Of a DNA stretch of 64,000 bases, positions 54,880 through 55,939 are shown in pieces. The DNA lies in the NCBI RefSeq assembly GCF_933775445.1, contig NC_065878.1, forward strand, positions 7,885,395 to 7,949,394. The letters run 5' to 3'. The stretch comes from Argentina anserina. Its lineage: Eukaryota > Streptophyta > Magnoliopsida > Rosales > Rosaceae. The notes under the pieces are model-generated. The model was not told the DNA's origin. It ran no database searches and was given only the letters and a program-made list of their open reading frames with translations. The position numbers and the translations under genes were made by a program. Position 1 is the first letter of the stretch. Every line of letters starts with the position of its first letter.

Positions 54880-55939
54880 ATGTCTAGGTATGCTTACTGG
54901 GCCTGCAACATGCATATTTTCTTCTCTTAACATACTCATTTGACCATGGTGATCCGCAATGAAAGCTTCACATAACTTCTGATGATTATTTCCCCATCTC
55001 TTAGTCAGCTCGTGACCATCCAAATCTCCACCCTCTTCATATAAATTGTCATACCGATCCTCACTGACATTACAGTTCATAAACCCTGGTCCAGGAGAAG
55101 CTAGTGGAAGACCAATGTTCAGCTTTTTACGTTTTCTCTTTCCAATACATGGCATTGCTGCTAAATCTAAGACTCCACTATCTGCAATTTTTGGAAGTCT
55201 GCCATCAATTACATATTGCTGGTGGAAAGAGCCAAAGCCACATGGGGGAACTGTACCATCATTAGCTTTTTCATGTGCTTATATTCCATTTCTTGTAGCC
55301 TCATCTTTCACTGGTACAACGGTAGCATCGTCGATGTATCCTATATCACCTGTGTGCAACCATCTTTCTTTGTCTATGGTCCTCGCATTCGCCGCAGGAT
55401 CATTTAGGTATCCTTTCATAATTTGGCTCCCTCGGATGCAAATTTCTCCAGATTGGTTTCGGGGAAGGGATTCATTAGTGTCGGGGGTAATGATTTTCAT
55501 CTCAACATTTCTTACCACGGTTCCGCATGCACCTGATTTGATATCGTAGGGTTCTTTTGCAAATGCCAAGCACATTGATAGAACTGGTCCAGCCTCAGTC
55601 ATCCCGTAACCCTGTCTGAGTTTGGCATCCGGCAGTTTCGTCCTGACAGTGTCCTCGAGCTCCTTCACAGTATCCTATCACAATGCACACAAAGCAGCCC
55701 CTTTCAACCCAAGAATCTTTGTACTCCACACTAAAAGGATTATGCACTGTGGAAATAAGCTCCATCTCCTGGTGAGCAGATCTGCGGGTTCTATCAGTTT
55801 GACGAGCAAGACAAATCTTCTTCAGCACATACTTCTTCTTTTCGTGCTTATACCTTACAAGAATAACAGAACCAAAAGAACCTTTCCCAATTTGCTCCAG
55901 AATTTCGTGATGGTCCATCTTAATCCCTAACACTCTCAT
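54880..55939 (-). pseudogene. Chimera of captured host gene fragments (NEK kinase / 4CL / unknown)
   Basis: Three pieces of host genes lie in the same orientation. (1) 55915-55675: start of a NEK-family Ser/Thr kinase (HHEILEQIGKGSFGSVILVR, KKYVLKKICLARQTDRTRRS, VEYKDSWVERGCFVCIV, GYCEG), with Gly loop and catalytic Lys but nothing beyond the N-lobe. (2) 55668-55279: a 4-coumarate:CoA ligase segment (KLRQGYGMTEAGPVLSMCLA, GEICIRGSQIMKGYLNDP, WLHTGDIGYIDD), with an internal deletion joining GYIDD to VVPVKDEA. (3) About 55262-54880: an open stretch I do not recognise (LAAMPCIGKRKRKKLNIGLP, EAFIADHHGQMSMLREENMH). No piece is complete and frames change at the joints. The fusion lies inside the Harbinger element. 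Confidence 0.75.

Follow-up and report, generated by a model that had tools for sequence, protein, structure and literature searches.

A fusion of pieces from at least four host genes as probable cargo of an LTR retrotransposon inside a Harbinger element of Argentina anserina

We analyzed a 64,000-nucleotide stretch of the Argentina anserina genome (NC_065878.1, positions 7,885,395 to 7,949,394; hereafter the window, C7:7885395-7949394), in which an interrupted Harbinger element contains a fusion of host gene fragments. A preliminary description of the window had recognized three fragments at 54880-55939, namely a NEK kinase, a 4-coumarate-CoA ligase (4CL) and an unnamed third, and had proposed that they were captured by the Harbinger element. 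The window's own assembly (237 Mb, 146 contigs) served as the comparison genome, with C-numbers denoting its contigs and L-numbers loci taken from it; the data are sequence data from one accession. Our analysis traced the fusion to four or more host genes, with parental loci at other places in the genome, on C2, C4, C7 and C6; it adjoins the start of a long terminal repeat (LTR), which points to an LTR retrotransposon as the carrier (Table 1).

A DNA search of the genome with 54880-55939 returned 28 matches, the best parental one with an E value of 7.7e-140. At the place described, NEK and 4CL pieces follow one another head to tail on the minus strand, with Pfam matches to Pkinase (E 1.5e-10) and AMP-binding (E 2.3e-21), respectively. 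Upon realignment to the parent locus, the NEK piece resolves into four C2 exon blocks (91.1, 98.5, 97.1 and 100% identity), and the 4CL piece corresponds to three C4 exon blocks (92.9, 93.6 and 93.3%), identities too high to be due to chance. The head-to-tail fusion is therefore real, but the supposed third fragment comprises at least two pieces, from an ATE1 gene and an NFRKB homologue, whose parents encode the Pfam domains ATE_C and NFRKB winged helix, respectively. It should be noted that the reading frames in which NEK and 4CL stay open in the window are not the same. Mismatches between the NEK piece and its parent are concentrated in the first exon block (12/135 versus 3/171 in the rest, about five times denser; Fisher p 0.006), an imbalance that a composite origin of this piece would fit. 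The window and L017 have NEK changes in common at two positions, one of them also found in a paralogue, which is too little to establish a single capture.

The NEK and 4CL pieces span six parental introns with GT-AG borders, three in each gene, and all six are absent from the window cassette, including the third 4CL intron, whose borders in the parent are GTACC/GATGAAAG. Since every spanned intron is gone at such borders, the capture of NEK and 4CL passed through spliced RNA. This feature was overlooked in the preliminary description, as was the LTR start occupying 408 bp upstream of the fusion. The ATE1 and NFRKB pieces each fall within one exon, span no intron and are uninformative on splicing. 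Introns are likewise missing from the cargo of sister copies of the carrier, namely L017 (5' untranslated region, UTR, of NEK), L015 (LRR and FtsJ) and L028, where borders follow the limits of BLAST alignments and are less precise, most of all for FtsJ.

Table 1. Features at the fusion and in the surrounding Harbinger element (positions within the window)
Feature	Position	Strand	Basis
LTR start, about 408 bp (U3, TG end to TATA-like box)	55963..56370	-	Homology to family LTRs
NEK kinase complementary DNA (cDNA) piece, 5' UTR to N-lobe	55660..55965	-	Parent C2:20047624-20048258, L009; three introns gone
4CL cDNA piece	55326..55666	-	Parent C4:7322599-7324547, L010; two introns gone here
4CL continuation past 110-bp internal deletion	55292..55330	-	Third intron gone at 55313/55312
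Linker GAAATGGAATATAAGCACATGAAAAAGCT, 29 bases, between 4CL and ATE1	55264..55292	-	Sequence comparison
ATE1 (arginyl-tRNA-protein transferase) exon piece	55195..55263	-	97.1% to parent C7:19938823-19938891, L013
NFRKB-homologue exon piece	54807..55186	-	96.3% over 380 bp; parent in L011, C6:8163645 region
High-copy repeat following the cargo	54082..54784	-	1,449 candidate genome matches at first look
Harbinger element, inverted ends GGGCATCTC..., later insertions nested	43612..56950		Harbinger-like ends
Harbinger transposase, Plant_tran/DDE_Tnp_4	44602-45300	+	Pfam
Harbinger ORF1 (open reading frame 1) start, 16 codons + 2 bases, interrupted by LTR	56371..56420	-	ORF, comparison with relatives
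Later part of Harbinger ORF1, NAM-associated domain barely over cut-off	45776..46135	-	Pfam
LINE-type (long interspersed nuclear element) fragments nested in Harbinger	46405..47931	+	RVT_1 below cut-off, zf-RVT above

The bases before the NEK piece define the carrier. A 409-bp U3 query matched at all of the 40 places that were scored out of 620 candidates, so that copy numbers from this query are lower bounds; these places are the window and 39 others at 88-90% identity, 38 of which run from base 1-3 to 409 and one of which stops at 396. At 14 of 30 loci, a string resembling a polypurine tract (PPT) lies ahead of the TG end, and these were taken as 3' LTRs. Most copies have the LTR termini TGTAGA...TCTACA, and a search with a 20-base string (at most five mismatches) found the LTR end in 12 of 13 PPT-preceded 3' LTRs (L038 excluded) and in 13 of 15 other loci, the LTRs with a recognizable end measuring 0.55-1.19 kb. 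Eight of the 13 ends in the set lacking a PPT are followed by one recurrent string resembling a primer-binding site (PBS) and five by 5-bp flank repeats; the 5-bp target duplication is perfect at L027, L030 and L049 and agrees at 4/5 bases at L029, L042 and L071/L015. Paired direct LTRs are present in L071/L015, those of L015 being 93.5-94.9% alike in two blocks and 85.8% over a longer gapped block. The order reverse transcriptase, RNase H, integrase is seen in L072/L014, a single copy with RVT_1 and then RT_RNaseH_2 in L072 and rve in L014, in stretches broken by stops. Judging from these features, in the small parts of the family that were sampled, we assign the carrier to a high-copy family of Ty3/gypsy-type LTR retrotransposons.

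The LTR extends to at least position 750 in 25 of the 30 loci and to 593-677 in L031, L045 and L048; it is interrupted at 311 in L038, and in the window it breaks off at the TATA-like box, which corresponds to position 353 in the LTR of L015. BLAST of three sister loci found neither a 3' LTR nor the LTR remainder in the window, and no element sequence beyond 4CL. We take the window copy to be a truncated derivative of the family. The U3 also contains an imperfect self-complementary stretch at 56006-56135, and 38 reverse-strand secondary matches were recorded among the 40 scored places.

The TG end of this LTR interrupts the Harbinger ORF1, which is indeed split into a start and a distant later part, as previously described. 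An ORF1 transcript would exit the Harbinger sequence after 16 codons, and its read-through across the whole fusion is conjecture. Capture of the gene fragments by the Harbinger element at the DNA level would agree with the position of the cargo between two Harbinger-like ends. However, the LTR end stands between ORF1 and the cargo, the NEK and 4CL pieces lack introns, ORF1 runs on in L057 and L058, two Harbinger relatives, with neither LTR nor cargo there, and related cargo pieces accompany the same retroelement at other loci. We therefore regard capture by Harbinger as extremely unlikely; carriage by a mobile element holds, with the LTR retrotransposon in that role. The preliminary description had named Helitron or MULE ends bounding the fragments as a finding that would refute its proposal. 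The situation observed resembles that case, with an LTR end in this role on the 5' side; the 3' side is rearranged, since nothing in the window matches, above chance, the 287 bp of Harbinger ORF1 expected from L057 after the LTR site. For the same reason, a clean insertion with target duplication was ruled out; GATAT precedes the TG end of the window LTR, and the opposite 3' end is lost.

No clear 3-bp duplication was found at the flanks of the Harbinger-like ends. A long inverted repeat with a short spacer occupies 50348-52110 (51307-52110 against 51176-50348, 86% over 838 bp), and a candidate HSP70-like gene, judged by eye from two open stretches, lies beside the Harbinger end at 57071-59605 (+).

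The joints between pieces are informative as to how the fusion arose. At the NEK/4CL joint, which lies inside exons, both parents match over GAAGGAG, 7 bp and thus one base more than had been claimed. The internal 4CL deletion also falls at a short similarity, as noted before, 110 bp being lost at the short repeat CGATG in a stretch that L014-L016 retain. In L017, NEK is joined to another gene, left unnamed here, and the two parents have CCACCTCA in common (8 bp, one base altered in the copy). The earlier proposal of template switching or microhomology repair thus finds support at some of the joints. The U3/NEK joint would most simply represent a deletion after insertion, since L017 has more of the NEK 5' UTR and most copies have a longer LTR.

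Several joints recur. The 4CL/linker joint is common to seven copies (the window, L014-L016 and L020-L022), the linker itself recurs with changes in L012, L014-L016, L018 and L020-L022, and L012 shows an apparent 4CL remnant ahead of it; the ATE1-NFRKB adjacency is found again in L012 and L018. The window retains more 4CL than L014-L016 and more NFRKB than L012 and L018. Most simply, the recurring 4CL/linker joint would reflect one old capture that was variously trimmed. An assembly misjoin has a negligible probability, as the 4CL-linker and ATE1-NFRKB adjacencies recur at other loci and the junctions between blocks coincide with exon borders and short stretches of shared sequence. Independent retrocopies inserted successively into the element, such as those produced by a LINE, would be in line with the LINE fragments nearby and with the dicot retrocopies that a passage of PMC4838847 attributes to LTR and L1-like elements. 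Against such serial insertion, no poly-A tract or target duplication was seen between the pieces (judged by eye only), some joints are common to copies at different loci, and NEK and 4CL meet at 7 shared bp, which makes it very improbable.

Read-through transduction, in which element transcripts run into adjacent host genes and are spliced and reverse transcribed jointly, would equally yield sense, spliced pieces, and a passage of the review PMC13317346 names this mechanism for plant retrotransposons. With parents on C2, C4, C7 and C6, however, it would require several events per cassette, the NEK/4CL joint is exon-internal and at shared sequence, and the cargo is located upstream of the PPT, not past the 3' LTR. 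We consider this route unlikely.

For each of 21 copies, the 1,478 bp preceding the 3' LTR were compared for their cargo, with L038 (174 bp) excluded from the grouping; eight copies had been chosen for cargo in common with the window, and the remaining 13 formed an unselected set. At a threshold of 20% coverage these 13 fall into nine sequence groups, and many copy pairs match only over about 100 bp beside the PPT. Pfam searches covered ORFs of ten unselected copies (L043, L044 and L045 were excluded) and identified ribosomal S17e in L028, LRR in L035, zf-met in L037 together with NPH3 below cut-off, and histone H2A, also below cut-off, in L050 and L053. Among the chosen copies, we identified LRR and FtsJ in L015, protein kinase in L012 and L018, and kelch below cut-off in L021, and no Pfam domain in the tested ORFs of L020 and L022. 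Three guesses made by eye (galacturonosyltransferase-like in L018, cyclin-like in L035 and kinase-like in L039) had no Pfam hit and were dropped. A candidate common cargo-entry string, with right-strand matches at 4/39 loci versus two wrong-strand matches and most loci too short, was not used. An approximately 169-bp sequence at L018:3532-3700 has many genome copies at 80-100% identity and may belong to a short mobile element.

Across all sister-copy ORFs tested, Pfam domains occur in 11/24 on the plus strand, partly chosen by eye, and 0/18 on the minus strand, so that a sense-strand bias of the cargo is only suggestive.

The sequences show the carrier, the loss of introns, the joints, and how cargo is shared and varies among copies. 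On this evidence we consider it probable that the fusion was acquired as cargo of the Ty3/gypsy-type LTR retrotransposon through repeated template switching onto spliced host mRNAs. Because sequence is shared at some joints, the pieces stand in sense order and the parents lie on four contigs, we infer that the reverse transcriptase jumped between templates. Several points weigh against this explanation. The window copy has no detectable pol, PBS or 3' LTR, so that its membership in the family depends on the U3 together with the cargo it has in common with fuller copies. At the joints, U3 and NEK have only TAT in common, and ATE1 and NFRKB are separated by a small number of additional bases, with no evident sequence in common. 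Among the ten unselected copies, Pfam hits were obtained in five, with three above cut-offs (L028, L035 and L037), and the tested ORFs of L025, L033, L036, L039 and L040 gave no Pfam domain. When ORFs were taken by length, domains were found in 4/15 longest plus ORFs and at 0/15 loci on the minus strand (the minus ORF of L040 was not the longest shown), a weak sense-only pattern. Finally, two observations are left unexplained: the cargo of L036 matches C3:10982302-10983466 over 1,165 unbroken bp at 96%, which could be a parent or another copy, and two C2:3294 blocks align with a stretch of L018, but in reversed order.

According to the template-switching explanation, element RNA and spliced host mRNAs would be packaged together, and the reverse transcriptase would switch at short shared sequences from the element RNA to a host mRNA and then back, leaving pieces of cDNA in sense orientation ahead of the 3' LTR. 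In later rounds these pieces would be inherited, recombined, added to, trimmed and swapped, giving different mosaics in each copy. One copy may then have inserted into an older Harbinger element, where subsequent deletions would have joined U3 to the NEK 5' UTR and eliminated the remaining LTR sequence, pol and the 3' LTR, along with 287 bp of Harbinger ORF1.

Pack-MULEs, Helitrons and Pack-type DNA transposons carry host-gene mosaics taken from genomic DNA that may retain introns. The cassette described here is likewise a host-gene mosaic, but it lacks introns and is accompanied by an LTR end. Among LTR elements, the nearest precedent is maize Bs1, which a passage of the review PMC13317346 describes as a retroelement with pieces of three host genes and a chimeric reading frame; the same source mentions abnormal template switching between retrotransposons in plants. 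Both systems hold several host-gene pieces within one LTR element. Unlike Bs1 as portrayed there, the present carrier family is high-copy, its mosaics differ among copies, and in the window, known from sequence alone, NEK and 4CL are in different frames and a working fusion is not indicated. Host sequence inside LTR retrotransposons is also known from cereals, with 672 LTR-captured genes in rice, 1,343 in sorghum and 424 in maize according to an excerpt of PMC3726574, which counts annotated captured genes, whereas here short spliced pieces of multiple genes are stitched together within one family. Plant retrotransposons with additional ORFs located after pol and before the 3' LTR, the position occupied by the present cargo, appear in a portion of PMC7264820 that reports transduced genes in one or few copies; in our case the parents are identified and one 4CL piece is common to seven copies. 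Our literature search, which covered titles and abstract openings with subscription papers mostly outside its scope, found no such family described in strawberry or with many cargoes. The many-copy, many-cargo form looks like a new variation on these precedents.

It is possible, although we hold this more tentatively, that the family maintains a standing cargo region between integrase and 3' LTR that continually gains, trims and reshuffles spliced host mRNAs, which would amount to a genome-wide library of exon-shuffled chimeras that could give rise to new genes or to small RNAs directed at the parents. With many copies, LTRs that serve as clocks and identifiable parents, the rate, place and short sequences of reverse-transcriptase jumps onto host mRNAs would become measurable, and the chimeras could be tested for expression and for silencing of the parental genes.
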